From a virus: a stretch of 23,017 nt of DNA. Where the stretch lies: positions 1 through 23,017 of the IMG/VR virus record IMGVR_UViG_3300021197_000955; one strand, 5' to 3'. Below, one piece after another: positions 2,954-22,190 of this stretch. Made by a program: the position numbers and the translations under genes. The notes beneath the pieces are model-generated. The model worked only from the letters and a program-made list of their open reading frames with translations, was not told where the DNA came from and searched no databases. Each line of letters opens with the position of its first letter. Position 1 is the first letter of the stretch.

Positions 2954-3112
2954 CTATAGTTGAATAAGGCTCAGCCACATTGTCCCAAGTACTAAGACCA
3001 TTAACACCGCCATAAATATATCATCTGCTGTATGCCGATCCATATAGATATCATGTCTGTTAACTCTTAATTTTTGATAAATGCAACCTGCCGTTGCTTT
3101 TACATATTTCAT
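2954..3112 (-). CDS. Small single-pass membrane protein
   Basis: A 52-residue frame that is easy to miss. Its ATG overlaps the last base of the DNA polymerase stop (TAATG), the same coupling used by several genes here. The first 30 residues are basic and polar (MKYVKATAGCIYQKLRVNRH), and residues 33-52 form one hydrophobic segment (IFMAVLMVLVLGTMWLSLI) that reads as a transmembrane helix reaching the C-terminus. The frame fills the gap between polymerase and SDR exactly and ends two bases before the chosen SDR start. Function unknown; it would be predicted in the host inner membrane. Confidence 0.6.
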   Translation of the reverse strand: MKYVKATAGCIYQKLRVNRHDIYMDRHTADDIFMAVLMVLVLGTMWLSLIQL

Positions 3113-5373: not shown

Positions 5374-5894
5374 TCTAATAATTCTCCATAAGTTAATGTT
5401 TTAAATAAGTGGTAATCTAAGTGATACTTAAATGTTTGTCTGTTCAAATGGAACTGACCTTCACCAGTATTACCACGGTGTTGTTTGTTAGAGTATCTCA
5501 TTTCAGTACCAATATTACTAGCATTACACCTGAATATTAACACCATGTCTTTAAAGAATACTCCATAAAAAAGAACATCAAATTCTTCTTTTTTGACTTG
5601 TTGGATATTACAATCCCAGTCGTAATCTTGCCATTGATGATACATGATATCGCGATTGGCTTCGCATTCTAGAGCTTTGAACAAGTTGTTGTCCGTTATC
5701 TTCAGCTCTGCTTTCTTTTGAACTCTCGAAAATTTACACTCTATACGACTACCATCAAATTTATCAAATAAATCGTATGACAACTGATCGCTGTTATCTG
5801 CTTTTACAATCTTCTTAATCATAATCTCGGCAACTGTGCCGAATCTACGAGTATGCAATCCGAAGACTGCTTGTTGAAGTTGAGTGCTATCCAT
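5361..5894 (-). CDS. PD-(D/E)XK nuclease candidate
   Basis: A 177-residue protein between primase and polymerase. A helix with E23 (RFGTVAEIMIKKIV, 18-30) precedes FDKFDGSRIECKFSRVQ (43-59), where D47 followed by E52-x-K54 fits the D-(D/E)xK core of the restriction-endonuclease-like fold. Its C-terminal half has several aromatic strands and the segment GNTGEGQFHLN (138-148), a look shared with some restriction-type enzymes. The ATG overlaps the primase stop (ATGGATAG) and it runs 13 bases into the polymerase, so the three are made together. Roles that fit are a replication or recombination exonuclease, or host DNA breakdown. The fold call is by motif only. Confidence 0.55.
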   Translation of the reverse strand: MDSTQLQQAVFGLHTRRFGTVAEIMIKKIVKADNSDQLSYDLFDKFDGSRIECKFSRVQKKAELKITDNNLFKALECEANRDIMYHQWQDYDWDCNIQQVKKEEFDVLFYGVFFKDMVLIFRCNASNIGTEMRYSNKQHRGNTGEGQFHLNRQTFKYHLDYHLFKTLTYGELLEWLK

Positions 5895-6729
5895 ATAATC
5901 GTTCTTTTAGTTTATGTACTTGGGCCGGAGTAAACCCGCCTGGGTCTTGTCCGTCCTTCAGTTTAATTTGTTGTACTGACAGTTCCATTTTCTCTGCCAA
6001 TGTTTTAATTTGTTCTGATGCTTTTTGGCCTGCTTCGTCGCCATCAAACAATATATCAATTCCCTGCACTCCTTGTAGTTTGAGCAGAGATAGCTTGAAC
6101 CAGTCCATTTGTTGTGTTCCGAAACAGCAAACTGTATTCTTTAAGCCGTTGTCCCAAAGATTGAGACAATCAAAAATTCCTTCAACCAATATCACTCTGT
6201 TGTGTATTGGCTTGACTTTTGCTGGAGTGAATGGCATCTTTACCCCCTGTGGGTAGATATAATACTTGTCTTGTCCTGTGCCACCAGCAATGTTTCTCCC
6301 TAAGAGTGCAATCGTTTTGCCCGTTAAGTCACGAATCGGAAAGATAATCCTACCTTCAAACTTTGGAACATTCCAAGTAAAGGCCTGCCATATCTTTAGA
6401 GTTTCCTCAGAGATATTGCGGTACGGACCACCTTTCCATTCGATACGGTCTTCTGGGAGTTGAATACCAACGGTTTGTGAACGGGTTTTTGCAATCTGGT
6501 TTTTAATTTTGTGTAATCTTACTTCTAGTGGACTCTCTGGTGCACCGAAGTGTGTGAATATGTTACCTTTGAACCCACATGCGAAACAGTGCATTAAGCC
6601 TGTTACTTTGTCTACTCTTAGACTTGGGTTCGTATCGTCATGCTCAGGATTTAGGCATGCAATTAGTGCGTCCTGTCCTTTAACAGTATACGCTAATCCT
6701 TTTTCTTCTATTAAATCTATTGCTATCAT
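5887..6729 (-). CDS. DnaG-like DNA primase (zinc finger plus TOPRIM)
   Basis: A 280-residue primase that makes RNA primers for replication. A compact zinc ribbon uses C25, H30, C48 and C51 (the last two in HCFACG). The TOPRIM catalytic core has the glutamate E183 in VILVEGIFD and the acidic pair D229/D231 in ILFDGDEAG, with a further D262 in GQDPGG. No helicase domain is fused, unlike T7 gp4; the helicase is a separate gene 2.3 kb upstream. The ATG lies only 10 bases past the -10 box of its own promoter, so the predicted mRNA has a leader of just a few nucleotides and little room for a Shine-Dalgarno. First gene of the primase, nuclease, polymerase unit. Confidence 0.92.
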   Translation of the reverse strand: MIAIDLIEEKGLAYTVKGQDALIACLNPEHDDTNPSLRVDKVTGLMHCFACGFKGNIFTHFGAPESPLEVRLHKIKNQIAKTRSQTVGIQLPEDRIEWKGGPYRNISEETLKIWQAFTWNVPKFEGRIIFPIRDLTGKTIALLGRNIAGGTGQDKYYIYPQGVKMPFTPAKVKPIHNRVILVEGIFDCLNLWDNGLKNTVCCFGTQQMDWFKLSLLKLQGVQGIDILFDGDEAGQKASEQIKTLAEKMELSVQQIKLKDGQDPGGFTPAQVHKLKERLYG

Positions 6730-6739
6730 TTATAAGTAT

Positions 6740-6768
6740 ATTATACAGGAATTTTGACCTTGTGTCAA
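6740..6768 (-). promoter_or_regulatory. Sigma-70-type promoter of the primase-polymerase operon
   Basis: On the minus strand: TTGACA (6768-6763), a 17-base spacer, TATAAT (6745-6740). It is preceded by the block AAAAATAATAC shared with the other promoters here. The TGA stop of the ParB-like gene lies inside the -35 box. The -35 is also one arm of an inverted repeat TTGAC-N5-GTCAA (6754-6768), shared with the promoter at 12008-12036. Confidence 0.9.
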
Positions 6769-8344: not shown

Positions 8345-9081
8345 TATAACTCCTTAAAAAATAATGTGTCCCACTTACTATATGGAAAGTCAAAGAAGTG
8401 GTGCAAAAATACTTGATATATTCCTGCGATGTTTTTAAAATCATATTTAGCTGTAGGGTTACCTATATCATAATGGTACTTTCCATTTACATAACAACTA
8501 AATCCTTTTGTTTCGCAAGCTTTTCGCCATGCTAACTTTCTTTCTTCAGTATCAAACTCATTATTTCCTAGATAGGTGTCCGTATTTAGAGATAGGTGAT
8601 ATTGATCTTCTCCTCCAAAACCTGACCTGTGATCCATTTGCATAAGTATTTGTCTGTTACCTGCTGGGCCTCTTTGTATTTCCTTTATATTACTAAAGTA
8701 CTTGTGATACTGATTTCTACCACAGTTTCCTGTAGGTCTTTGTGTATTATCTATTACCCACCCTACTTGTCGTACTTCTGGAAGTATTGACTTTAGTATA
8801 ATTCTGTTTTGGCCTGGGTGTACAGTAAATCTCTTTTTCTCTAGATTACACCATATTATTACTGGGTCTTTAAAGCCCATTTTACCACTATTATGTCGTC
8901 CTAGAACTGTGTCGCAAAATACGTATGCGCGTAAGTAAATTCTGTTCTTATTATGTGTAAGCCATGTCTCGGCGCCGCGTTGCGGCAACCAATTTGGCCG
9001 CATATGCTTAAATAACTTATCGTCAACATCACATGCAAACATTGTAAACTGGTAATCACTAGTCCCTTGCTCATAAATCAT
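8344..9081 (-). CDS. Unknown protein with a HPGQNR (possible ParB-like) motif
   Basis: A 245-residue protein with many aromatic residues. KKRFTVHPGQNRIILKSI (82-99) contains H88-P-G-Q-N-R93, which resembles the glycine-arginine loop of the ParB/Srx superfamily, and the preceding strand PVIIWCNL would fit that fold. The remainder, including a Gly-rich stretch near QRGPAGNRQILMQMDHRSGF (136-155), is unrecognised. The ATG overlaps the helicase stop region by 11 bases, with GGAG 9 bases ahead. Position between helicase and MazG-like gene argues for a DNA or nucleotide role. The fold suggestion is weak. Confidence 0.6.
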   Translation of the reverse strand: MIYEQGTSDYQFTMFACDVDDKLFKHMRPNWLPQRGAETWLTHNKNRIYLRAYVFCDTVLGRHNSGKMGFKDPVIIWCNLEKKRFTVHPGQNRIILKSILPEVRQVGWVIDNTQRPTGNCGRNQYHKYFSNIKEIQRGPAGNRQILMQMDHRSGFGGEDQYHLSLNTDTYLGNNEFDTEERKLAWRKACETKGFSCYVNGKYHYDIGNPTAKYDFKNIAGIYQVFLHHFFDFPYSKWDTLFFKEL

Positions 9082-10432
9082 TATAATCTTCTCCCGTATG
9101 CATCTGCTCTTTTAAATCAGCGCGTTCATCAGGATCCATAGCCGACTGAGGACCGATTTTTAAGGTTTCCCAGTCAATCTCGGAGATAAATGATTTCATC
9201 TCTCCGCTACGCATTTTGTTACATTTGAATTTGATTGCGTTCTCTTCTTTGCCCCAATGTTCAAGGGTGTAAGACGCATCTACGGCATCTTCGATACCTT
9301 TTGAGAATCTTACCTCTCCTTTAGGATTGGTTTGGAACGCTGATATGACCAATACTTCTTGGTCTTGGGCGAGTGCCTTCAATCCCTTTGAAATCTCTAT
9401 TTGTTCAGTCCATTCGTACTGACCAGAGCGACTAGGAGCATTGTGACGACGTACTTGGTTTAGATAATCTACGATTACCATACCCAGATCGGGGTATTCT
9501 ATCTTCTTCTGCCTAACTGTACTAATAATCTTAGCAAGTGTAAGAGAAGGGTCATAAAATACATCTAACTGAGCCTTATCCTTTAGTTCACATTTTCGAG
9601 TCAGTGCATAGTGGAACTTGTCAAAGTCTTCGGAAACATTCCAGTCCGCTAGGACTTCGCTGCCACCTTCAAACCTGTCTGCCCACCACTGACCGATGCG
9701 TTTCCACTCTTTCTCATAAAGATTTCTCTTTATAAGTCTGCCTAGTGGTACACCGGTGGCCATACTACACATTCTTTGCAGAATGGGTCGCTGATCCATC
9801 TCGATAGTAAAGTAAAGCACGGAACGTCCTGATTGCTGGGCATTGACAGCCATATTACAGCAAGCAAATGATTTTCCGTGACCTCGTTGCGCCCCCACAA
9901 TGACCAAGTCTTTGGGAGAGAATTGATAAGACAAGTCGTAGTCTTGGTTTAACCCTAAGCCTAAGTACTTTGCCAAATCTTCTTCAGAATCGAACAACTC
10001 TACAGATTCCATTGTGTCGGAATCATCAGCAGTGTTAACTCGATCTTGAACTTGTACGACCATCTCTTGCAGATAGTCTATGTTTTCTTTAGCGTCAGCA
10101 ACGCTAATAGTATTGTCTATATAATGTTCAATCTTGGATAGTATTTCATTCTGAGTGAATGAATCTTTTAGATATTCTAGTAGTTCGTGCGCTGGGACAT
10201 CAGTGTCCACAGCTTCTATCGCAAAAATTTTCTCTTGGAGCTCTCTGGAACGTATCTCGTACTTTAAATCCTCAAAAGAGGGTAAAGCATGGAACTTATG
10301 GACGTGTTTATCCACGACCTTCCAAATCTTCTGATACTCGCCTTCAGGAAAATAATGCACCTGTAGGCGGTTCCAAGTCTCGAAATCTCCTTGCGATAAA
10401 AGTTGTTTTATAAGTGCGCTTTCTACTGTCAT
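9071..10432 (-). CDS. DnaB-type replicative helicase
   Basis: A 453-residue RecA-fold hexameric helicase. The C-terminal domain has Walker A GAQRGHGKS (180-188), catalytic E211 in YFTIEM, Walker B VIVDYL (319-324), the ISAFQTN strand (363-369) and KMRSG (407-411), where R409 corresponds to the arginine-finger loop of DnaB. The first 130 residues form a helical N-terminal domain like that of DnaB. I start at the ATG at 10432 because GGGAGAG directly precedes it; the upstream TTG would place the Shine-Dalgarno inside the gene. An intrinsic terminator lies just upstream, with no recognisable promoter between, so expression would depend on read-through. Works with the separate primase. Confidence 0.92.
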   Translation of the reverse strand: MTVESALIKQLLSQGDFETWNRLQVHYFPEGEYQKIWKVVDKHVHKFHALPSFEDLKYEIRSRELQEKIFAIEAVDTDVPAHELLEYLKDSFTQNEILSKIEHYIDNTISVADAKENIDYLQEMVVQVQDRVNTADDSDTMESVELFDSEEDLAKYLGLGLNQDYDLSYQFSPKDLVIVGAQRGHGKSFACCNMAVNAQQSGRSVLYFTIEMDQRPILQRMCSMATGVPLGRLIKRNLYEKEWKRIGQWWADRFEGGSEVLADWNVSEDFDKFHYALTRKCELKDKAQLDVFYDPSLTLAKIISTVRQKKIEYPDLGMVIVDYLNQVRRHNAPSRSGQYEWTEQIEISKGLKALAQDQEVLVISAFQTNPKGEVRFSKGIEDAVDASYTLEHWGKEENAIKFKCNKMRSGEMKSFISEIDWETLKIGPQSAMDPDERADLKEQMHTGEDYNDL

Positions 10433-10445
10433 AATCTCTCCCAAG

Positions 10446-10472
10446 AAAAAGTAGGGGTGCGAACACCCCTAC
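10446..10472 (-). terminator. Intrinsic terminator after the four-repeat Myb-like gene
   Basis: On the minus strand a perfect 9-bp stem (GTAGGGGTG / CACCCCTAC) closed by a UUCG tetraloop is followed by TTTTT. It sits 23 bases past the gene's stop and just 14 bases before the helicase start. The plus-strand reading has no T-run, so it is directional. Confidence 0.9.
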
Positions 10473-10494: not shown

Positions 10495-11217
10495 TTATTG
10501 AGTAACTCTTTCTTTTCTAGCTGATCCGTCGTAGTCAGCACAAACTAAACCACGTCTTGTAAGCATTGTTTTCACGCCTCTTACAGTTTTGCCGATTGAG
10601 TCAGCGATTTCATCAACAGTTAGCCCGTCGATTTCCATATCCGCTAGAGGGTCTGCTTTGCCAGAACCTTTAGTTTCTTTTTGCTTAGGGATAGCGTTAA
10701 TTTCGCCAGCTCTAAGTAAAGATAATGCCTTACCTCTGATAGAGTTTACACTCTTTCCTAGGCTGTCAGCAATCTCTTCAATGAAAGACCCACCGTTGAC
10801 CATCTCAACGAATGTTCCTTCTTCAGCTTCAGAATAAGTCTTAACTGACTCAACTTTAGGAGCAGGTTTAACATGCTCTGTTAGTTGCATTGAAAGGATT
10901 TTGCCTTGAATTGACTTAGCAGAAAAGTTTCCGCCTTCAAAGTTCGCAGCAATCTCAGCGTATGTGTACTGACCTGAATTGTCATTTACAAATGCTGATA
11001 AAGTAGCTTCTTGAGCGTCACTAAAAGATTTAGCGTTGCTTGATGAAGCAAGTTCTACATCATAGCCCATTTTTCTTAGCTTAGAAGAGACACTTCTTAC
11101 AGAAGTCTCTAGTTCGTCTGCAGCGTTAGCTACAGTAGCTTGAGAAACAGGTGTTTCAGAGCCTACAAAGCTCTCAAGAGATGATGTTCTCTCGTCTGTC
11201 CATTTTGGTAATGCCAT
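10495..11217 (-). CDS. Four-repeat Myb/SANT-like DNA-binding protein
   Basis: A 240-residue protein built from four HTH-like units: roughly 5-56 (starting WTDER), 64-115 (FSDAQEATLSAFV), 127-175 (YSEAEEGTFVEMV) and 190-228. Units end in a shared helix of the form S-(V/I)-R-x-x-x-x-x-L-x-x-x-G (RSVSSKLRKMG, KSIQGKILSM, NSIRGKALSLL, RGVKTMLTRRG). Unit four lacks the first helix. Arg/Lys on the third helix suit DNA contact. A single-unit relative is encoded at 19069. ATG at 11217 has GGAG ahead and lies one base after the ligase-half stop; the longer TTG start is discarded. A strong terminator follows, suggesting high expression. Likely a structural or single/double-strand DNA-binding replication protein, or a regulator. 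Confidence 0.75.
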   Translation of the reverse strand: MALPKWTDERTSSLESFVGSETPVSQATVANAADELETSVRSVSSKLRKMGYDVELASSSNAKSFSDAQEATLSAFVNDNSGQYTYAEIAANFEGGNFSAKSIQGKILSMQLTEHVKPAPKVESVKTYSEAEEGTFVEMVNGGSFIEEIADSLGKSVNSIRGKALSLLRAGEINAIPKQKETKGSGKADPLADMEIDGLTVDEIADSIGKTVRGVKTMLTRRGLVCADYDGSARKERVTQ

Positions 11218-11218
11218 T

Positions 11219-11974
11219 TTATTCTCCAATTAAATCTAAAATGTTAGTTATTATAACGACTCCTCTGTCGCGAGCAGTCTGCGTTTTGGCTGACTCAACT
11301 CCTGACTCATTGATTAAATGAGTGCAGTCCTTTGTCAGACTATTTTTTACGGCAAAGCCGTGTTGTTCCAGAACTTCAGCAGCACGAGCCTTAGTAGGAT
11401 ATGAATTGAGTCTACCTGATATGCAGACTGTCCCGACAGTCTCACGCTTTACTACTTTAGTAGCGGAGAAACTGAATGGTAAGTTTGTGCCATATTCATT
11501 TGGGTAAAATTCATCTTCTAACCAAGTTAAAAGGTTTGCTGTGGCTTTCGGGCCAATACCCGCTTCAGTACAACTTTTCTCTGAGATATCTTCGAGTGAA
11601 GATATTGTCTCGCATAATTTTTGAGAAGCTGACCGACCGAAAAGTGGAATGGAGAAAGCTGGCAGCAATGTTTGCAAATCAACTGATTTTGACTTCTCAA
11701 TCTCAGTTGCTAACTTGACTGCCAATCTCTCCGAGCCTAGTCTGCTGGAAATATCCTCTACAGTAAGCTCATACAGTTCTGGGTAATCATCAATCGCTAA
11801 CTTACTAATGCAAGCAGGACCGAATCCTTTTATTTTCAAGAGTTTACCGAAGTGTTCTAGTTTCTTACCCCATTGTGCTGGACACATCTTGTTGAAGCAA
11901 TAGAGTAAGTCATTAACAAACTCTACTGTTCCTTGACAAGAAGGACAGGCAGTTGGTGGTAAAATTTCGCTCAA
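11219..11974 (-). CDS. NAD-dependent DNA ligase, C-terminal half (zinc finger, HhH, BRCT)
   Basis: A 251-residue protein equal to the C-terminal half of bacterial LigA. It opens with the four-cysteine zinc finger C10-C13-C26-C31 (CPSC ... CFNKMCPAQ), continues with helix-hairpin-helix units (IKGFGPACISKL at 48-59, EAGIGPKATANLL at 137-149) and ends with a BRCT domain (about 178-251, CISGRLNSYPTKARAAEVL). It lacks the nucleotidyltransferase core, which is encoded at 15582. These modules bind nicked DNA. The start is TTG at 11974, with a purine-rich AGAGAGAG ahead and a 33-base gap from the -10 box. Together the halves total 564 residues, against about 670 for E. coli LigA. Phage T5 is known to carry a two-gene NAD ligase. 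Confidence 0.9.
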   Translation of the reverse strand: MSEILPPTACPSCQGTVEFVNDLLYCFNKMCPAQWGKKLEHFGKLLKIKGFGPACISKLAIDDYPELYELTVEDISSRLGSERLAVKLATEIEKSKSVDLQTLLPAFSIPLFGRSASQKLCETISSLEDISEKSCTEAGIGPKATANLLTWLEDEFYPNEYGTNLPFSFSATKVVKRETVGTVCISGRLNSYPTKARAAEVLEQHGFAVKNSLTKDCTHLINESGVESAKTQTARDRGVVIITNILDLIGE

Positions 11975-12007
11975 TTCGATTCTCTCTCTTTTTTATTTAT
12001 ATTGTAT

Positions 12008-12036
12008 ATTATAGAGGTTTTTTGACCTTTTGTCAA
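12008..12036 (-). promoter_or_regulatory. Sigma-70-type promoter of the ligase C-half / Myb-like / helicase unit
   Basis: Minus strand: TTGACA (12036-12031), 17-base spacer, TATAAT (12013-12008), followed by ATAC as at three other promoters. The upstream block AAAAATAGTTC is present. The stop TGA of the small gene at 12033 is within the -35 box. TTGAC-N5-GTCAA inverted repeat at 12022-12036 matches the primase promoter. Confidence 0.9.
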
Positions 12037-12185
12037 GAACTATTTTTAGTTTCCTGACCTTCTTCAATAAGTTCAAAATTTTCCTCATCTTCATACACAT
12101 AGGTATCTGCTGTGTAATTTCGTTTTAAATTCCACTCAAACCACCATGTTTTAATTTTTTTAATTATTTTATTTAAGAAATTCAT
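12033..12185 (-). CDS. Small hypothetical protein, 50 aa
   Basis: A 50-residue frame filling the gap between the SGNH-like gene and the next promoter. The N-terminus is basic and aromatic (MNFLNKIIKKIKTWWFEWNL, 1-20), an amphipathic or membrane-surface helix, and the C-terminus is acidic (YEDEENFELIEEGQE, 31-45). The ATG lies within the end of the SGNH-like gene (17-base overlap) and the TGA is part of the following -35 box, so the frame uses every base available. No family is recognised. Evidence is positional and compositional only. Confidence 0.55.
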   Translation of the reverse strand: MNFLNKIIKKIKTWWFEWNLKRNYTADTYVYEDEENFELIEEGQETKNSS

Positions 12186-13113
12186 TCTTTCTTATGTCTC
12201 CAATTATTCTTTCTGCCATTAGGGCATGGGTCTCTTCTAGTGGGTGATCTTTCGGCCCAATAGGTAGTCCGTTACTTTTAGCAATATCATACATGCCCTG
12301 GTCTTGTAAGAATGGAAGTTCTCTTATGCATTGCTCTCTATTTAAGTCTATGGTGGGCCACCATACGTTAGTGTTCTCATATGTTGGCTGGTCTAGTAAT
12401 GGTAACAAAGGCTTATACTGTCCACTAGAAAACAAATAATGTAATTGTGGGATTCCCTTTGCTTTTAGCATATACTTTACCGCTAGCATACTTTGAATTG
12501 TTTTTCGTAGATTATAGTGTGCATTTCTAATACGCATCATATAACCTCTCATATATTCTTCTTCGCCAGGTTCATACTGTCTATCAATGTAGACTTCGCT
12601 GTTTGGCATAGCTTTCATTGTGTTTTGCTCTAATGAGAACTTACCCCAAGCACTTACTACCCAACTCCAATCATCTGTAATGCTAGACAGTCTAAGATTT
12701 TCTAATCTGTTTATTCCTGACCACATACATACTACTAAGCTAGGCCAGCCATCTCCTGTGCATTTTTTATTGATTTGGATTGTTTGGTCGTATGTTCCTG
12801 TTGCATTACGGTATTCCTTCCTCTGTGTTAGTCTTCTAGAATCTAGGTTATTGCCTTTATGTGGCATAATTTTTGTTTTATAGGTATGCCTCTTTGTTTT
12901 AATGTTTTCTGTGGGGTGTGTATAATAAAGCTTACCTCCAAGAACTGCATTAGTTACGGTTCTTTGGATATAGTCATTACCTGCACCAATCTTAGCTTCA
13001 TTCCATTGAAGCTCTCCAAACTCTTTGCACACTTTAGTAGCGTACCTATCCTTTAGTTTATCTTTAAGTTCCATGCCATTGGTGAAACTACAACCACTAA
13101 ATAAAATCGTCAA
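12169..13113 (-). CDS. SGNH/GDSL-hydrolase-like protein
   Basis: A 314-residue protein with SGNH-type blocks: ILFSGCSFTNG at 3-13 (block I with nucleophile S9), GAGND at 43-47 (the block III Gly/Asn) and D289-H290-P with H296 near the C-terminus (block V). The family covers esterases and O-acetyl transfer or removal on sugars. Its TTG start overlaps the carbamoyltransferase stop (TTGA) and GGAG lies about 10 bases upstream; ATG does not occur nearby. Direct coupling to a carbamoyltransferase suggests a shared small-molecule or glycan target. The middle 200 residues show no other motif. Family confidence is good, function open. Confidence 0.68.
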   Translation of the reverse strand: MTILFSGCSFTNGMELKDKLKDRYATKVCKEFGELQWNEAKIGAGNDYIQRTVTNAVLGGKLYYTHPTENIKTKRHTYKTKIMPHKGNNLDSRRLTQRKEYRNATGTYDQTIQINKKCTGDGWPSLVVCMWSGINRLENLRLSSITDDWSWVVSAWGKFSLEQNTMKAMPNSEVYIDRQYEPGEEEYMRGYMMRIRNAHYNLRKTIQSMLAVKYMLKAKGIPQLHYLFSSGQYKPLLPLLDQPTYENTNVWWPTIDLNREQCIRELPFLQDQGMYDIAKSNGLPIGPKDHPLEETHALMAERIIGDIRKNEFLK

Positions 13114-14465
13114 AATACTTTTACTCCATACATTTTCTGGAAATCCATTGCATGTTGCCAGTTATCTACTATAGGTTGCCCTTTAATATTCAAACTTGTA
13201 TTTAACAACATTGGAACTCCAGTTCTCTCATAATACTCCTCTAAGATTGGTCTTAGTACGCTAGGGTTTTCGGGAGTGACTAACTGTACTCTAGCACTAT
13301 TATCTACATGGGTTACTGCTTTGTAATCATGTTTTGCTTGTGCTACGTACTGCATATACTCGTTCATTGGCCCTTCAAAGTATTCATTTGCATACTCTGA
13401 TAAAATAGCTGGAGCGAATGGTCTAAAATTCTGCCTTCTCTTAATTCTATTAACTGTGCGCTTAATATCAAAACGCACATCACCAAGAAGACTACGATTC
13501 CCCAATGCTCTGGGCCCAAATTCGGCTTTTCCATTTGCTACTCCACATACTTTCTTTTTTAATATCCAATCTACTACTTCTCTAGGGTTTACTTGATGTT
13601 GTATGTCTGTCCCAAGAAAAGGACTATACTTTACTTTCTTACCAGTATACGCTAGTGCTGCACCTAAACTACTGCCTGCATCGCCAGGGTTTGGGTAAAT
13701 CCAAACATTCTTAAAATAGTTGTGTAATATTTTACTATTTGCTACGCAGTTGAGTGCAACTCCACCTGCATAACATAAATTCTTGCCCCAGTTAGCGGCT
13801 AAGCCTACTAACTTTTCGATTTCTAACTCAGCATGAGCTTGGGCACTTGCGGCTATATCCTCTGGTCTATGACCTTTAAAATCTTCTAGGGTGAACCCCT
13901 TATGCCAATTTGCCCAGTCATTGAAGCAATACTGCATATCTACACATACTTCTCCATATGCCGCCATTCCCATAGTTATATACTCATCTTCGTTTGGCTT
14001 CAAACCAATACGCTTAGTAATAGCACTATAGAACAGGCCAATGCTTTTTGGATAAATTTTCTCAAAAACTTTTTTCAATTTTCGATTCTCAACTATCCAT
14101 ATACTGCTAGTTGTCCATTCTCCGATCGCATCAATCACGAGACATACCGCGTCCTCGGTAAAGGGTGAAGTATAGTACGCTCCTGCTGCGTGGCTTTCGT
14201 GATGATATGTATGATAATCACATTGCTCAAAGATTTTTGTCGAAACAGGGACTTGCGAATTAGCTATACGTCTCTCGTTCTTTAGCGGTACGTTTTCATA
14301 GAAAACAGATACATCTGCGTCTGCATTTCTTAAATGAAGTGGGTTGATTCTGTCGTTCTTTTTTCTACTAAAACGCTCGGCGTGTTTAGCCCAAAGAATC
14401 TTGTCTCCTTCAACTAATGCGACTGAGGCGTCGTGAAACCCCTCTGAAATACCTTTAACTACCAA
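13110..14465 (-). CDS. Carbamoyltransferase (NodU/CmcH/TobZ family)
   Basis: A 451-residue enzyme that transfers carbamoyl from carbamoyl phosphate, via carbamoyl-AMP, to a hydroxyl of a sugar or other small molecule. Seen motifs: GFHDASVALVEGD (9-21), the iron/active-site HHESHAAGAY (88-97), CYAGGVALNCVANSKI (231-246), NPGDAGSSLGAAL (259-271), EFGPRALGNRSLLGD (315-329), RPFAPAIL (348-355) and LLNTSLNIKGQPIV (420-433), covering both the kinase-like and YrdC-like regions. I place the start at TTG 14465, with AGGAG 10 bases upstream and a 7-base overlap with the preceding stop; the longer frame from 14498 reads through the neighbour. Length is below the roughly 550-600 of NodU. In phages it may modify nucleotides, glycans or host surfaces. 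Confidence 0.88.
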   Translation of the reverse strand: MVVKGISEGFHDASVALVEGDKILWAKHAERFSRKKNDRINPLHLRNADADVSVFYENVPLKNERRIANSQVPVSTKIFEQCDYHTYHHESHAAGAYYTSPFTEDAVCLVIDAIGEWTTSSIWIVENRKLKKVFEKIYPKSIGLFYSAITKRIGLKPNEDEYITMGMAAYGEVCVDMQYCFNDWANWHKGFTLEDFKGHRPEDIAASAQAHAELEIEKLVGLAANWGKNLCYAGGVALNCVANSKILHNYFKNVWIYPNPGDAGSSLGAALAYTGKKVKYSPFLGTDIQHQVNPREVVDWILKKKVCGVANGKAEFGPRALGNRSLLGDVRFDIKRTVNRIKRRQNFRPFAPAILSEYANEYFEGPMNEYMQYVAQAKHDYKAVTHVDNSARVQLVTPENPSVLRPILEEYYERTGVPMLLNTSLNIKGQPIVDNWQHAMDFQKMYGVKVF

Positions 14466-14623
14466 TGGTGTATAACTCCTGACATAATAACGAAGCAAGT
14501 AAAAAAATTAACGAGCACGATGAGGCTCCTAAATATTGCAACAATATCAGCATCTCTATCAGTTTCGCCACTCTTATCTCCTAGGCTTCTTGCCCACAAA
14601 TACCATACTTTACGAGCCTTCAT
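14459..14623 (-). CDS. Small membrane-anchored conserved phage protein, 54 aa
   Basis: The protein begins MKARKVWYLWARSLGDKSGE, has an acidic patch TDRDADIVA (21-29) and ends in one hydrophobic helix (IFRSLIVLVNFFTCFVIMSGV, about 30-50) before IHHW. It is predicted as a single-pass membrane protein with a basic N-terminus in the cytoplasm. A longer frame starting at 14683 exists, but its extra 20 residues lie in a second frame under the 44-residue gene, so the ATG at 14623 is preferred even though no clear Shine-Dalgarno precedes it. The carbamoyltransferase start overlaps its stop. Function unknown. Confidence 0.55.
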   Translation of the reverse strand: MKARKVWYLWARSLGDKSGETDRDADIVAIFRSLIVLVNFFTCFVIMSGVIHHW

Positions 14624-14744
14624 AAGGCGGTAAGTCGTCGTATCTATAGAACTTCTTTGTTTCACTATGATAATGCCAACCATTGTACTTATGTTCGCTG
14701 CTAGGCTTATCTGATTCTATATATTTATTTTCTTCTTCTACCAT
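14610..14744 (-). CDS. Small hydrophilic protein, 44 aa
   Basis: A 44-residue frame whose ATG overlaps the stop of the GIY-YIG-like gene (ATGGTAG) and whose stop overlaps the next start (ATGAAGGCTCGTAA). It begins with an acidic run (MVEEENKYIESDKPSSEHKY) and continues WHYHSETKKFYRYDDLPPYE, rich in aromatic residues. The exact fit between two coupled genes is the main support. It falls below common length cut-offs. No function can be proposed. Confidence 0.55.
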   Translation of the reverse strand: MVEEENKYIESDKPSSEHKYNGWHYHSETKKFYRYDDLPPYEGS

Positions 14745-15106
14745 TTCTTAGGGAAATCCTCCAATATCTTACTCGTTGGTTTGAAGCACTCTGTGTGTCC
14801 TCCAAACTTGTGAGAGGGTTCTAGTTTATCACTTAAGAACTTAGCATGAAGCATTTGTTCCATGTTAAAGACTTCTTCTAATGTAGAAGTCCATGTTCTC
14901 TGAATTCTTAAGTCATAACCTTGAAAGCCTCTTGCTCTCTTGATTACATGACGCCAGTCTTTACCAGCGGCAATGCCTACTTTAATTATCTCTCTTTCGT
15001 GAGTTTTCTTATTTACTAATACAACGCCGTACAAGACACCCTCTTTCTGTGCTTCGAGAGGGTGATTTTTGAAATAAGTCTCATTATACTTTCCTACAGA
15101 AGCCAT
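14738..15106 (-). CDS. GIY-YIG / T5orf172-like nuclease-domain protein
   Basis: A 122-residue protein with the strand-turn-strand layout of the T5orf172/Mug113 branch of GIY-YIG domains: VLYGVVLVN (24-32) for the first motif, IIKVGIA (40-46) for the second, basic R57/R59, the presumed metal-binding glutamate E83 in NMEQMLHAKF, and GGHTECF (102-108) near the end. Free-standing members occur in phages and may cut DNA; homing activity is possible but nothing flanking looks like an intron. The ATG at 15106 follows AGGAG at 11 bases; the longer TTG form from 15139 would run through the membrane-protein gene. Confidence 0.62.
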   Translation of the reverse strand: MASVGKYNETYFKNHPLEAQKEGVLYGVVLVNKKTHEREIIKVGIAAGKDWRHVIKRARGFQGYDLRIQRTWTSTLEEVFNMEQMLHAKFLSDKLEPSHKFGGHTECFKPTSKILEDFPKKW

Positions 15107-15113
15107 AAATAAA

Positions 15114-15416
15114 TTAAGCTCCTGCAAGAACACGAACAACTCCTGACGCCAGTATTACTACTGCTGCTGCGTTCAGAATTATTAACGCTCTATCCTTCCA
15201 TATAACACCTACTGCTAACCAGCCTGCACAACCTATAGTTGAGAGAACTAAGTCTACAAAGGGGTACGCCTGTCCACCACGAAGTATCATAGCAGTCAGT
15301 AAAACTATAGATGATGCCCATTTTATCCACCAAGATATATCAAAGTTTAGCCACGCTTTGTCTATGCGTTTCTGTAGTTGCTTAAGCTTCTTAGTGCGTA
15401 TTTCTTCTAGATTCAT
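15114..15416 (-). CDS. Small polytopic membrane protein
   Basis: A 100-residue protein with a basic, charged N-terminal helix (MNLEEIRTKKLKQLQKRIDK) followed by three hydrophobic segments, roughly 29-46 (WWIKWASSIVLLTAMILR), 53-72 (FVDLVLSTIGCAGWLAVGVI) and 76-98 (ALIILNAAAVVILASGVVRV). It should sit in the inner membrane with a cytoplasmic N-terminus. The ATG overlaps the end of the previous gene by 26 bases. It resembles small membrane proteins of unknown function in other phages. No lysis-protein features such as a holin-endolysin context are visible. Confidence 0.68.
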   Translation of the reverse strand: MNLEEIRTKKLKQLQKRIDKAWLNFDISWWIKWASSIVLLTAMILRGGQAYPFVDLVLSTIGCAGWLAVGVIWKDRALIILNAAAVVILASGVVRVLAGA

Positions 15417-15582
15417 CTAGTAACTCCCACTCATCTAATAATTGTTCAAAGTATTCTGCATCATTCATTTCTTCCATCATTTCGCGGAAGAACTCAAGGT
15501 CTGGAATTGTTTGTCCAATAGGTATTTTAGTTATATAAACTCTGTATGCTTTCTCTAATTGTGATTCTAAATACAATAACAT
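15391..15582 (-). CDS. Small acidic conserved phage protein, 63 aa
   Basis: A 63-residue, strongly acidic, apparently all-helical protein containing FFREMMEEMNDAEYFEQLLD (31-50). The ATG overlaps the stop of the ligase N-half (TAATG) with GAGGAG just ahead, so it should be made in step with the ligase. Such short acidic proteins could be partners or inhibitors of a nucleic-acid enzyme, but nothing specific can be read. It may be worth testing against the split ligase because of the tight coupling. Confidence 0.65.
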   Translation of the reverse strand: MLLYLESQLEKAYRVYITKIPIGQTIPDLEFFREMMEEMNDAEYFEQLLDEWELLDESRRNTH

Positions 15583-16523
15583 TACACTCTCCTCACAACT
15601 TTAGGGATAATTTCTCCACTTCTGATAATCTCTACATCACAACCAATCTCTAACATCATTTCATCTATGAAAGCAATATTGTGTAGTGTAGCACGAGAGA
15701 TGGTTGCACCATTGATTTCTACAGGTTGTAGAATACCCGTTGGGGCTATAACTCCAGACTTACCAGTATTCCACTCTACATCTAATAGTTTTGTAACTAC
15801 TCCAGCCGCTCTAGTTTTGTAAGCATATGCTCCTCTAGGGTGGTGTGAAGTATATCCAAGCTTCTCAAAAGCACTATATCTATCTACTCGGAATACAATT
15901 CCATCGTTTGGGAACTCGTCCCAGTTACCCATAGATATGACATTAAACCAATTATCCATAAACTTCATATCTTCTAGCCATCTTTCTCCAAGATTCGGCT
16001 GTAGTCCATATGCAACAAAAGTCAAGTCTCGTTTCTTGAACTCGGCAACATCTTTTAAGTTTAGTGCACCTGATGCATAATTCCTAGAGTTAGGTATACT
16101 CTTAGGGGCTACGACTTCTCCTGTGATTTGTCGAACTCCACTAAAAGAATATTTATCTAGTACTGTTGGAACTATGTGTTTTATCTTATCGGTTATATCT
16201 AGTCCTGCTTTTCCATCTCCTCTAGTTAAGGCTTGATGATATATACCATCTACATAGGTTACGGACACAGCTGCGCCATCAAGCTTAGTAGTCGTAACTA
16301 CTGCTTCGTTTCCATAGTCGGGGGCTTTATCTTCTTGTGCAAAGACTTTTTGTAGTGAGAACATAGGGAAGGGGTGTTTAAAACGACTGTCTGTAACTGA
16401 GCCCACTTCATCTGTATTAACATTGTCTACGAGGCGATCATACACTTCATCAGGTATGATAGGTCGTCCATTGAAATATGCATCGCGACATTTACTTAAA
16501 TATGTTCTTATATCTTTATTCAT
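15582..16523 (-). CDS. ligA: NAD-dependent DNA ligase, N-terminal half (Ia, adenylation, OB)
   Basis: A 313-residue protein equal to the N-terminal half of bacterial LigA. The Ia-type NAD-binding part is at about 5-60 (YFNGRPIIPDEVYDRL, with SLQKVF at 56-61). The nucleotidyltransferase has catalytic K80 in KLDG, R101 in TRGDG, E136 in GEVVAP and DGIVF at 207-211. The OB fold holds the typical TG..APTGILQPVEINGA and ATLHN (278-282). It ends just after RSGEIIPKVV, exactly where the zinc finger would start in LigA; that part is encoded at 11219. The ATG is 6 bases past a perfect -10 box, so the mRNA is predicted leaderless. Self-adenylation should be possible alone, but nick sealing probably needs the other half. 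Confidence 0.93.
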   Translation of the reverse strand: MNKDIRTYLSKCRDAYFNGRPIIPDEVYDRLVDNVNTDEVGSVTDSRFKHPFPMFSLQKVFAQEDKAPDYGNEAVVTTTKLDGAAVSVTYVDGIYHQALTRGDGKAGLDITDKIKHIVPTVLDKYSFSGVRQITGEVVAPKSIPNSRNYASGALNLKDVAEFKKRDLTFVAYGLQPNLGERWLEDMKFMDNWFNVISMGNWDEFPNDGIVFRVDRYSAFEKLGYTSHHPRGAYAYKTRAAGVVTKLLDVEWNTGKSGVIAPTGILQPVEINGATISRATLHNIAFIDEMMLEIGCDVEIIRSGEIIPKVVRRV

Positions 16524-16529
16524 TTGTAT

Positions 16530-16558
16530 ATTATACTAAGATTTTAAGGATTTGTCAA
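16530..16558 (-). promoter_or_regulatory. Sigma-70-type promoter of the ligase N-half operon
   Basis: Minus strand: TTGACA (16558-16553), 17-base spacer, TATAAT (16535-16530), then ATACAA and the ATG. Consensus at all 12 hexamer positions. With the usual 6-8 bases from -10 to +1, transcription starts at or next to the ATG. The 40 bases 16530-16569 match 17239-17278 at 38 positions. The upstream block doubles as the tRNA 3' trailer. Confidence 0.93.
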
Positions 16559-16664
16559 GAACTATTTTTCTGGTGTCCCGAGCAGGAGTCGAACCTGCAA
16601 CCTACGGCTTAGAAGGCCGTTGCTCTATCCGTTTGAGCTACCAGGACATCAGAGAAATAGTTCT
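16558..16664. repeat. 21-bp inverted repeat bracketing the tRNA-Arg
   Basis: Arms 16558-16578 and 16644-16664 are inverted copies with 19 of 21 positions matching. They include the first bases of the tRNA acceptor stem on each side and run outward through AGAACTATTT. In the precursor RNA this would lengthen the acceptor helix by about 14 further pairs. The left arm is also the upstream block of the ligase promoter; the right arm ends at the stop codon of the neighbouring gene. Confidence 0.85.
16571..16647 (-). tRNA. tRNA-Arg, anticodon UCU, CCA encoded
   Basis: A complete cloverleaf on the minus strand: acceptor stem GTCCTGG/TCGGGAC with two G-T pairs, D-arm GCTC/GAGC, anticodon stem ACGGC/GCCGT with loop CTTCTAA (anticodon TCT, complement at 16611-16613), T-arm GCAGG/CCTGC with loop TTCGACT. 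Discriminator A and CCA are encoded. The anticodon reads AGA, a codon used often by the AT-rich genes here. It lies between the gene at 16663 and the ligase promoter and is probably co-transcribed from the 17239 promoter. Confidence 0.96.
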
Positions 16665-17232
16665 ATCTGCTTATCCTGTTTTCGTAGTCGGCTGAGGTTT
16701 CGTCCCACCAAGAAGGTTTGTCTCGGTACTTCCAGTCGGCAAAGACTGCTTTGTCTTTGTGGTAGAACTCTCGGTAGGCGGTGACGGTATCGTCGTGTTT
16801 GCAATCATCAGGCATGGCTTGTGCAAATGGGGTAAGCCCGATGTCGGGGATTGATATTTCTGGTAGCCCCAAGACCATCTCGACAGATTTATGCACCTTG
16901 CCGTATCGGTAGGTATACTCCTCTCCCAATGCCAATGCGTAGCAGTAGAGCCAGTCGTAGTTGGACTGGGAGCTCCTAGCCCAGATGGTACAAGGGTGAT
17001 TATACATAGTAGGGAGATAGGGAAAATCCCTTGGCTCATTCTTTTTCTGAATTGAGACTTTTGCCCATTCTTCTGAGGTGAGCTTCCTGTTAGGTACGTA
17101 TCCTGCATATTTGTGTGTCCAATGTACTGTGCATAGCATCTGTCCAGCTTCTAGTGGCATCTTGACGATGTGCTTGTCAACATGATACTCTGCGTTTTTG
17201 TCTAAATCTTCATCAAGTATAAAAATATTCAT
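16663..17232 (-). CDS. Conserved phage protein of the DKHxVKM type, function unknown
   Basis: A 189-residue protein beginning MNIFILDEDLDKNAEYHVDK and then HIVKMPLEAGQMLCT (21-35). This conserved start, followed by a Trp/Tyr-rich middle (NHPCTIWARSSQSNYDWLY, 78-96) and the ending AYREFYHKDKAVFADWKYRD, is a layout I associate with a family found widely in phages, whose function I cannot name with confidence. H17, D19, H21, H79 and C81 are candidate metal or active-site residues. The ATG is 6 bases beyond a perfect -10 box, so the transcript should be leaderless. Its stop lies in the inverted repeat upstream of the tRNA. Together with the tRNA it forms a unit flanked by nearly identical promoters. 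Confidence 0.75.
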   Translation of the reverse strand: MNIFILDEDLDKNAEYHVDKHIVKMPLEAGQMLCTVHWTHKYAGYVPNRKLTSEEWAKVSIQKKNEPRDFPYLPTMYNHPCTIWARSSQSNYDWLYCYALALGEEYTYRYGKVHKSVEMVLGLPEISIPDIGLTPFAQAMPDDCKHDDTVTAYREFYHKDKAVFADWKYRDKPSWWDETSADYENRISR

Positions 17233-17238
17233 ACGACT

Positions 17239-17267
17239 ATTATACTAAGATTTTGAGGATTTGTCAA
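17239..17267 (-). promoter_or_regulatory. Sigma-70-type promoter of the DKHxVKM gene and tRNA-Arg
   Basis: Minus strand: TTGACA (17267-17262), 17-base spacer, TATAAT (17244-17239), then AGTCGT and the ATG. The oxygenase stop TGA lies inside the -35 box. Predicted to give a leaderless mRNA. It is a 38/40 direct repeat of the ligase promoter 709 bases away. Confidence 0.93.
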
Positions 17268-17638
17268 GAATTATTTTTGTGAAACCAAGAAATAAGTACG
17301 CGTCGTACTCCCTTCTTTACTTTTGTAACTTCGTGTTTTTGTTCAGGCAAGTAAGTGTATGTTTCTCCTACTTCCATGTCTATATGTTTACCCTCTACTA
17401 TCATATCACCGCCTTCTAGGTCTCTTGACTTGTATAGAAGCGTAACTTCTGTTTTTAGGGAACTGTCAACATGAGGGGCAGCAAAAGAACCTTTTCTATA
17501 CTCTATCATATAGCTACTTTCTAATTCAGTATGCTGTCTAGGGCTAAAGTAACAGTTCTGTACATTACCTAGCTTCTCTTTATACTCCAGTTCCCCTTGC
17601 GCCTTATAAATCTCCCACTCACGAGCCCAATCGGTCAT
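17264..17638 (-). CDS. Small 2-oxoglutarate/Fe(II) oxygenase-fold protein
   Basis: A 124-residue protein with the iron-binding set H56-x-D58 (FAAPHVDSS), H102 (PEQKHEVTKV) and R112 or R113 about ten residues later (GVRRVLISWF), the spacing expected of 2-oxoglutarate oxygenases. The strand EVTLLYKSRDLEGGDMIVEG (64-83) matches the P4H-like core. It is short for the family, covering little more than the catalytic beta-helix. The ATG overlaps the stop of the SGNH-like gene (ATGA). Its stop codon TGA is part of the next promoter's -35 box. Substrate unknown. Confidence 0.75.
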   Translation of the reverse strand: MTDWAREWEIYKAQGELEYKEKLGNVQNCYFSPRQHTELESSYMIEYRKGSFAAPHVDSSLKTEVTLLYKSRDLEGGDMIVEGKHIDMEVGETYTYLPEQKHEVTKVKKGVRRVLISWFHKNNS

Positions 17639-18405
17639 GTTAAGTGTTTTTTGAGGTATGCTGCAAATTCTTTGTGACCTGAATAGTCACGGTGATGGAA
17701 CCCAAGTTGTTTTCCGAATTGGTCTAATCGTTTGGGAACTGCATTGACTATGATACTTCTCCATGTATCAGTAAACATCTGATAATAGAGAGAATCTTCT
17801 GGCACATCTAACACATGGATATCTTCAACACTATCATCAAATATATCAAAATGTTGAATAAACTTATAACTTATATTCTTTTTAGCTAAGAAATCTTTTA
17901 TTGCTGTCATGTGGATTGCCCACGTGATAGCGTAGTGAGAGTCAGTATGAATACCTGCTTTACCATCTAAGTCTTCGTTCTTAAAATCGTATGCTCCCAT
18001 AAGGTCTAACTTATAAGTTCGTGTGGGTCTTGGTATTCCAATGTAAACATGGTCATAGGAATTTAACTCACCCCTATAATAATCTTTCTTTATTAGTAAG
18101 TGTAAGTAATCTGCACTCATAGCGGGCCATGTTACAACTCGTGCTTCAGAGTTTAACAAATAAGGGTATGCTGTCCGTAAGTTTCTATGAGCAAACTCAT
18201 ATACACTCATCTTAGAAGCACGACCCATTTTTACGTTCCACATCATTATAGCTTGGTGTAACCCAAGCTGTGCAATCAAATCTCTCTTTTCTCTGAAAGT
18301 ATTTCGATTAAGAAGTTGGTCGTGGTCGCTTTCATACCCAGCCATATGGCTATCGCCATAAAAATGCTGTTGTCTGTCTATTCGTTGTTTATAAGTAGAT
18401 TTCAT
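17635..18405 (-). CDS. SGNH-hydrolase-like protein
   Basis: A 256-residue protein with FYGDSHMAGYE at 15-25, where S19 would be the block I nucleophile of the GDS form, and D240 with H244 (HRDYSGHKEFAAYL, 238-251) in the position of block V. The centre contains YDHVYIGIPRPTRTY (117-131), where the strand after block I and block III would fall. It is not closely alike in sequence to the SGNH protein at 12169. The ATG lies within the end of the preceding gene. Activity could be esterase or deacetylase; some phage members may be non-catalytic. Confidence 0.62.
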   Translation of the reverse strand: MKSTYKQRIDRQQHFYGDSHMAGYESDHDQLLNRNTFREKRDLIAQLGLHQAIMMWNVKMGRASKMSVYEFAHRNLRTAYPYLLNSEARVVTWPAMSADYLHLLIKKDYYRGELNSYDHVYIGIPRPTRTYKLDLMGAYDFKNEDLDGKAGIHTDSHYAITWAIHMTAIKDFLAKKNISYKFIQHFDIFDDSVEDIHVLDVPEDSLYYQMFTDTWRSIIVNAVPKRLDQFGKQLGFHHRDYSGHKEFAAYLKKHLT

Positions 18406-18691
18406 CTAGTTTTTCTTTGAAATGTGTCTCTAGTATGTCTTTCACTTCACTTATGGAGAGAATCTCCACTAATCCATCAAATAATAACTTACTATTCTCA
18501 AAGTCAAGAGGCATAGTTACCCCTTCTCTGCTAGGCTTGAATTCTTCGTCAAAGTCTTGGAAATATTTTCTCAATGAGAGGTACTCTACATCTCTAAAGG
18601 TATTCACAGTAAGATAAATCTTTTCGTGTTTTTCTTTATTGTAGTGTATTAACTTCTCAAAGAGGGCGGGGGCTTCATGTAGTTCTATCAT
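18389..18691 (-). CDS. Hypothetical protein, 100 aa
   Basis: A mixed alpha/beta, acidic protein (MIELHEAPALFEKLIHYNKE at the start; FDGLVEILSISEVKDILETH near the end). The ATG overlaps the previous stop, and its end overlaps the SGNH-like start by 17 bases, so it is part of one coupled row. No motif, membrane segment or coiled coil stands out. Residues 26-47 (YLTVNTFRDVEYLSLRKYF) suggest a beta strand followed by a helix. Function unknown. Confidence 0.65.
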   Translation of the reverse strand: MIELHEAPALFEKLIHYNKEKHEKIYLTVNTFRDVEYLSLRKYFQDFDEEFKPSREGVTMPLDFENSKLLFDGLVEILSISEVKDILETHFKEKLDEIYL

Positions 18692-21267: not shown

Positions 21268-21553
21268 AATTATCTCCATCTATTACTGTTGTATGTTCTT
21301 TTCCATATAGCATTATAGCGTAGTGAATAATCTTCAATAAGTCCGCTGGGTTTGCACCTTCTTTCTTTCCATACCTTTGAGCGTACTTCATTACATTACC
21401 CATACAAAACCCTCTGCCATGTCCACTATCGAATATGAACTCAGTTGCCTGAATTTTACCCTGTGCATAATGTGCGGCATAAGTTTTGTCAATGTAGTTC
21501 TTTAAATATTCTAGAACTGCATCTTCATTAAATTTATAATCAATCTTCTCCAT
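21254..21553 (-). CDS. DUF3310-like phage protein
   Basis: A 99-residue protein with FCMGNVMKYAQRYGKKEGAN (49-68) followed by PADLLKIIHYAIMLYG (69-84), the pattern GN-x-x-KY-x-x-R ... DL-x-K of the DUF3310 (SaV-like) phage family, which is often annotated near nucleotide metabolism genes. No phosphate-binding loop is seen, so a kinase label would not be justified. The ATG overlaps the oxygenase end by 14 bases. Predicted cytoplasmic. Confidence 0.65.
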   Translation of the reverse strand: MEKIDYKFNEDAVLEYLKNYIDKTYAAHYAQGKIQATEFIFDSGHGRGFCMGNVMKYAQRYGKKEGANPADLLKIIHYAIMLYGKEHTTVIDGDNYGDK

Positions 21554-22190
21554 ACCAAAATCCTATTTGTGTTAATCTAGCAGTTTCTTTGGTATCTCCG
21601 AACCCTCCATCTTCTGATGTATGTAAGTAAGTAGCGTCGTACATGATAAGTCGATTATATCTATTCTCTACTTTACAATGTACTTTCCACTTATCCTTAT
21701 CTATATCACTATCCCAAAAGCTACCGTAAAAATGAGGGTTTTCATACTCCTGCATTGCTTTCTTACTAGGGTAAGTATTCGTTATGTTGCCCTTGTCATC
21801 TTCAAATAGTAGTGTGCCTGTATTCTTAGGGGGATTAGGGTTTAGGTAGATTACAAATGCGTACATTTTACTACTACCTCTGTCGTCTCCAAAATTAGAA
21901 TCTGAATGAATCCAATTATATCGATTACGCTTTTCAGCATAACCTATGTTGAATGCACCCATAGCTTTCATACTGGTATCTGTTGGTCGTAGCCCACTAA
22001 TACTAGCAACTCTATTGCGTAGATAAATTCTATTGTGCCACCAATTAGGATCGTTCTGCACAGTATGGCGAAAACCTGCATGAAATACTTTAGGAGGGTT
22101 AGTACCCGCTCCTCTAACATAGTCTAACTTCAAAGCTTGTTCCCTGATTTTGTCGGGATTCTTATAAAAGTTATCGACTACCCAAATCAC
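21540..22190 (-). CDS. DUF6445-like 2-oxoglutarate/Fe(II) oxygenase-fold protein
   Basis: A 216-residue protein beginning MIWVVDNFYKNPDKIREQAL, a start common in this family. The iron site is H95-x-D97 (NWIHSDSNF), H190 (YDATYLHTSEDGGFG) and R205 (ETARLTQIGFW). AFVIYLNPNPPKNTGTLLFE (111-130) is the core strand pair. It is larger than the other two oxygenase-fold proteins in the window and not closely alike. The ATG overlaps the stop of the coiled-coil gene (ATGA). Substrate unknown. Confidence 0.75.
   Translation of the reverse strand: MIWVVDNFYKNPDKIREQALKLDYVRGAGTNPPKVFHAGFRHTVQNDPNWWHNRIYLRNRVASISGLRPTDTSMKAMGAFNIGYAEKRNRYNWIHSDSNFGDDRGSSKMYAFVIYLNPNPPKNTGTLLFEDDKGNITNTYPSKKAMQEYENPHFYGSFWDSDIDKDKWKVHCKVENRYNRLIMYDATYLHTSEDGGFGDTKETARLTQIGFWYGED

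Follow-up and report, generated by a model that had tools for sequence, protein, structure and literature searches.

A probable two-subunit, NAD+-dependent DNA ligase of the T5 type in an uncultured relative of T5-like phages

Bacteriophage T5 encodes an NAD+-dependent DNA ligase in two genes (T5.116/T5.117, AY543070) that are annotated as subunits A and B, and passages of two earlier papers name the T5-type ligase split or two-subunit (PMC1684257, PMC4319617). The order in T5 is a PC4-like gene, a promoter, ligA, the promoters P-K28b and P-K28a, ligB, D5, the D6 helicase, primase and polymerase, with one homing endonuclease gene between D6 and primase. In BF23, as in T5, a promoter is annotated upstream of each of the two ligase genes. 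For the T5-like phage Stitch, a passage of PMC4319617 assigns to the A and B subunits the role proposed here. A heterodimeric DNA ligase of phage PR1 is deposited in the PDB (9hu3, 9i5i); according to the entry titles, molecule names and sequences, both chains are present together on a 21-mer nicked DNA. No paper on these structures was found among the open PMC papers searched. PR1 is probably Providencia phage vB_PreS_PR1, judging from the near-identical sequence of Providencia phage PSTCR5, in which the ligase genes lie 192 nt apart. In Haloferax, the LigN fragment equivalent to the N-terminal half self-adenylates and does not seal DNA (PMC1684257). The C-terminal part of LigN could not be expressed, alone or with the N-terminal part, so reconstitution was likewise not demonstrated in that study. 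Ligase domain functions are taken here from passages of PMC5052709 and PMC10504179.

We analysed a virus record from IMG/VR (IMGVR_UViG_3300021197_000955) over a stretch of 23,017 bases, referred to as the window. All genes considered here are on its minus strand, as are the ligase promoters and the hairpin described below. A preliminary description had reported an NAD-dependent ligase divided over two genes, and both open reading frames (ORFs) were found at the positions given there. The first, ligA (15582-16523), encodes 313 amino acids with domain Ia, the nucleotidyltransferase domain (K80-LDG) and the OB fold, and was recognised by the Pfam families DNA_ligase_aden (E 2.3e-29) and DNA_ligase_OB (E 2.5e-22) and assigned to the N-half family phrog_3359 of PHROG (E 5.8e-97). 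The ligase motifs, the KxDG lysine and its partners, are intact: K80 of the KLDG motif, D82, G83, R101, E136 and K236 were invariant in 25 aligned LigA sequences. Alignment with fused ligases placed the end of the chain at the OB fold. The stop had been described as falling right after RSGEIIPKVV, which is three residues short, as the C-terminus reads IIPKVVRRV.

The second gene, ligB (11219-11974), starts with TTG and encodes 251 amino acids with a Zn4Cys motif, a ligase-type HhH region and a BRCT domain. Pfam recognised only its BRCT end, with PTCB-BRCT just above the cut-off (E 5.8e-5) and BRCT, at 20.8 bits, just under the cut-off of 21.3. Residues 4-243 matched PHROG 3498, annotated 'NAD-dependent DNA ligase' (E 1.6e-56). 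The zinc cysteines C10, C13, C26 and C31 were invariant across 27 aligned sequences, and alignment with fused ligases showed that LigB begins a few residues ahead of the zinc finger. PHROG keeps half-length NAD ligases in two families, phrog_3359 and phrog_3498, apart from the full-length phrog_3869, which both window halves also matched.

Structure predictions of the single chains were confident for LigA (mean pLDDT 87.8) and LigB (mean pLDDT 87.6), and both had a chain of the PR1 ligase as their top PDB match. The LigA model matched 9i5i_A best (E 7.7e-36, TMq 0.81) and the LigB model 9hu3_B (E 2.7e-15, TMq 0.56); the rmsd between the LigB model and PR1 chain B was 10.6 because the orientation of the domains differs. 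Sequence searches against the PDB agreed with the structure searches, with 9hu3_A for LigA (E 1.8e-66) and 9hu3_B for LigB (E 4.6e-29). Identity to the PR1 chains was about 40% (A) and 34% (B), and the window halves were 37-42% identical to the T5 subunits in alignments. The fused bacterial LigA (E. coli LigA, PDB 2owo) has the same domains, order and motifs as the window pair. However, it is a single polypeptide with at most 33% identity, and the linker that joins its OB fold to the zinc finger, about 15-18 residues long, lies exactly at the window cut. The linker occupies the space between the window halves, and the cut falls at the domain boundary as had been proposed.

The window keeps T5 gene order, with extra genes interspersed. 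Upstream of ligA, in the position of T5.115, is a PC4/p15-type coactivator homologue (18389-18691; PC4, E 2.1e-9). Directly after ligB starts a D5-like transcription regulator (10495-11217, scanned as 10495-11229; phrog_323, E 2.1e-44), followed by a DnaB-type helicase in the D6 position (9071-10444; Pfam, PHROG), a DNA primase (5887-6729) and a family A DNA polymerase (3112-5373). This arrangement was also common among related loci: all 128 distinct loci whose sequence reached 800 nt or more past ligB had D5 directly behind it, at -22 to +33 nt, and in 83 of 86 loci PC4 was within 3.5 kb upstream of ligA. Among ten long records of relatives, several of which are fragments, homologues of the T5 polymerase were found in 10, of the T5 flap nuclease in 9 and of the T5 head (capsid) protein in 6. 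The window phage is an uncultured member of the T5-related group, and we take this group to be mostly marine, judging by record titles. T5 had been named as the known precedent for a two-subunit ligase, which is correct, but the relationship goes beyond analogy: domain content per half, cut site, neighbour order and a promoter before each half are all shared, and the halves fall in one group with those of T5-like phages. Elsewhere in the window, four genes (951-1772, 1765-2316, 17264-17638 and 21540-22190) encode a QueC-like protein (phrog_1550, weak), two 2OG-Fe(II) oxygenase-like proteins and a DUF6445 protein; from their sequences these are possible nucleotide-modification genes.

Related phages were searched for fused and split forms, as the preliminary description had suggested. 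We sampled 80 of 589, 80 of 576 and 80 of 128 candidate loci, and took 8 T5-like and 4 other records out of 1,198 and 926 matching phage records. Every distinct pair of ligA and ligB in the sampled loci was split (95/95; in two of them the N-half was truncated by a contig end), with gaps of 51-5,869 nt. The gap exceeded 2.5 kb and contained accessory genes in 51 of the 95 pairs. Twelve fused genes were detected, all of them distant, with identities to the window N-half of no more than 32%. Eleven of these were LigA genes on bacterial contigs, and one came from a record labelled Acinetobacter phage. The latter (CAKLQH020000007.1) carries smc, zipA, fused ligA and bacterioferritin, and looks like a bacterial chromosome. 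The 16 loci on bacterial genome contigs consisted of the eleven distant fused genes, three close split pairs and two close loci cut by the contig end. The three split pairs (L266, L268 and L269), 51-55 nt apart, were on contigs binned as proteobacterial genomes, which are probably phage contigs inside the bins. No fused ligase close to the T5-like group was found among the sampled loci; as the sampling was capped, fused close relatives may exist beyond it. There was also no informative locus with an N-half and no C-half. In the 40 loci with an N-half only, the sequence available downstream is 3,047 nt or less, which is shorter than the larger gaps, and therefore none of them demonstrates a true loss of ligB.

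Quick trees of the N- and C-halves were built without bootstrap from 63 rows (49 split and 14 fused, including three fused ligases of jumbo phages). In both trees all 49 split rows were on one side of a branch separating them from the 14 fused rows, and no fused ligase in the sample was nested among the split ones. The SH-aLRT support of this branch was 99 in the N tree (starred) and 93 in the C tree (unstarred), the latter with a long-branch warning. Distances of the N- and C-halves were congruent (Mantel r 0.86, 0/999 permutations), but this carries little weight, since the halves are linked and linkage alone predicts congruence. The simplest reading of these sequence data, and one that the trees fit, would be one old split common to T5-like phages.

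Based on these results we consider it very probable that the window pair represents subunits A and B of a T5-type heterodimeric NAD+-dependent DNA ligase of an uncultured T5-like relative, and that the split was inherited from an ancestor shared with T5. LigA would transfer AMP from NAD+ onto K80, and LigB, with its zinc finger, HhH and BRCT, would complete the clamp around the nick. Together they would adenylate the 5' end and then seal the nick during phage DNA replication and repair. Taken together, the PR1 heterodimer entries and the biochemistry of the LigN fragment make this course of adenylation, clamp closure and sealing the likely mechanism. By analogy with these enzymes, we infer that LigA and LigB bind each other and seal nicks with NAD+, and that the ligase product is active and NAD-specific. 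A counterpoint to this explanation is the spacing, with 3.6 kb in the window as compared to 182-1,135 nt among the cultured T5-like records, of which eight were examined.

The wide spacing, together with an intervening gene set that differs, could instead point to a recent independent split in the window lineage, convergent with that of T5. However, the cut site and the flanking genes are the same, and both trees group the halves with T5-like ones, so trees and gene order lead us to reject such a split for now as highly improbable. Because all 23,017 bases of the window come from one metagenomic virus record, the separation might also have arisen from misassembly or a frameshift in a gene that is truly fused. 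A fused gene in the real genome is contradicted by a separate record of 35,041 bp (L003/L037) that encodes both proteins with 100% identity and has the same gap. Conserved genes and a conserved promoter also lie between the halves, and on the strength of the independent record and the 95/95 split pairs we rejected an artefact, to which we give practically no chance.

It had further been proposed that the N-half could act on its own as a NAD-consuming or RNA/DNA-adenylating protein; the C-half would then have another role, for example as a DNA-binding partner of D5. The two promoters are indeed separate, the pairing of ligB with D5 (128/128) is tighter than that of ligA with ligB (51-5,869 nt), and the equivalent LigN fragment self-adenylates without the C-terminal part (PMC1684257). 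That same fragment fails to seal DNA, however, and the C-half of the window has lost none of its four zinc cysteines and also keeps an HhH region of the ligase type, while the PR1 chains sit together on nicked DNA according to the entry titles. The N-only loci are too short to show loss of ligB. We therefore found the proposal unsupported and regard a solo function as very unlikely, although marginally less so than a convergent split.

The ligA and ligB ORFs of the window, which do not form one polypeptide, are separated by 3,607 nt (11975-15581) with eight ORFs on the coding strand, whereas the T5 genes are separated by 202 nt with no gene between. The eight ORFs were compared by blastp with 56 distinct ligA-ligB gaps, including those of the eight cultured records and of the contig with identical proteins. 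Following ligA are ORFs of 63 aa (15391-15582; matches in 23/56 gaps) and 100 aa (15114-15416; DUF6552, Pfam E 1.4e-15; 26/56). Next to these is an ORF of 133 aa (14738-15139) from the endonuclease family phrog_681 (E 9.8e-10), matched in 47 of the 56 gaps; by our reading it is GIY-YIG/T5orf172-like, and it may have been an early insertion into the ligase gap. An ORF of 44 aa (14610-14744) was placed by eye in a cluster of 13 loci, and the weakest of the eight, of up to 74 aa (14459-14683), was matched in five gaps. The largest ORF (13110-14498, 462 aa) encodes a NodU/Nol-type carbamoyltransferase (Pfam E 1e-45 and 1.8e-42), for which a role in DNA or nucleotide modification is possible from the sequence; it was matched in 41 gaps. 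An ORF of 314 aa (12169-13113) was also matched in 41 gaps and appears SGNH-hydrolase-like by eye, with no family match in Pfam or PHROG, and the last ORF, of 50 aa (12033-12185), was matched in 26. With seven ORFs matched in other gaps and the 44-aa ORF placed in a cluster, the earlier count of eight genes in 3.6 kb is fair, the 74-aa frame being the weak member. The change between large and small gaps needs 4 steps on the N tree. Probably ligA and ligB had no need to be neighbours, and accessory genes accumulated in the space separating them in some of the uncultured phages.

Each half has a perfect TTGACA-17-TATAAT promoter. For ligA (16530-16558) the -10 element ends 6 nt before the ATG, and for ligB (12008-12036) 33 nt before the TTG, with the purine-rich GAGAGAGA lying between promoter and start; these distances were measured on the contigs with identical proteins, whose letters here agree with those of the window. 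The window contains four such 12/12 consensus sites, all on the coding strand and both ligase promoters among them, as compared to a mean of 0.04 and a maximum of 1 in 200 first-order Markov windows. Looser promoter-like sites were no commoner than chance (17 found, 19.2 expected). From their sequences, the ligase promoters presumably work as described here.

The position of the ligA promoter differs from that in T5, where the annotated promoter (9/12) is followed by a 31-nt leader. Upstream sequence of at least 91 nt was available for 123 distinct ligA genes, and in 99 of them a promoter with at least 10/12 matches ended 4-8 nt ahead of the start codon. Of the other 24, which include all eight cultured T5-like records, 6 were leadered and 18 had no promoter at the 10/12 threshold. 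The leaderless layout of ligA needs 6 changes on the N tree. The ligB promoter was leadered, 9-45 nt before the start, in 129 of 132 distinct genes, and the remaining three were just short of the threshold (9/12 matches). Thus, as far as promoter position can tell, most of the uncultured group probably has a leaderless ligA mRNA but a leadered ligB mRNA.

Separate promoters had been taken to allow separate dosing of the halves. Promoter sequences do precede both halves, but T5 and BF23 have annotated ones as well. In addition, a consensus scan of the coding strand gave no terminator from 17294 down to 10472, so ligB probably also receives read-through from the ligA promoter. A terminator-like hairpin, from the consensus scan only, follows D5 (10451-10472). 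Since the ligB promoter is leadered in 129/132 genes and D5 is directly behind ligB in 128/128 loci, what was described as dosing of the halves is better read as a ligB-D5 unit, which the ligB promoter would serve as a whole.

A two-part ligase is not new in kind, as it already exists in T5 and its cultured relatives; the two-chain enzyme is an old, group-wide T5-like trait that extends to many uncultured relatives. The only fresh details are the wider spacing of ligA and ligB and the probably leaderless ligA. One could speculate that in uncultured T5-like phages LigA is made from a leaderless early mRNA and LigB from a leadered ligB-D5 mRNA. Pre-adenylated LigA would then be stocked early, active ligase would form only once the D5 unit is expressed, and ligation would be tied to the replication/late switch. 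We consider this scenario unlikely. Should ligA prove leaderless and the ligB-D5 unit leadered, the pair would be a simple natural system in which to ask why a virus makes one enzyme as two chains and whether the route of translation sets the timing of subunit supply.

Other features were observed around these promoters. A tRNA-Arg (TCT) gene (16571-16647) is located directly upstream of the ligA promoter. Further upstream of ligA is a Pyr_excise-like gene (16663-17232; phrog_624), and a second perfect promoter (17239-17267) ends 6 nt before its ATG, making it another leaderless candidate. For primase, the distance from the end of the promoter (6740-6768) to the ATG is 10 nt.
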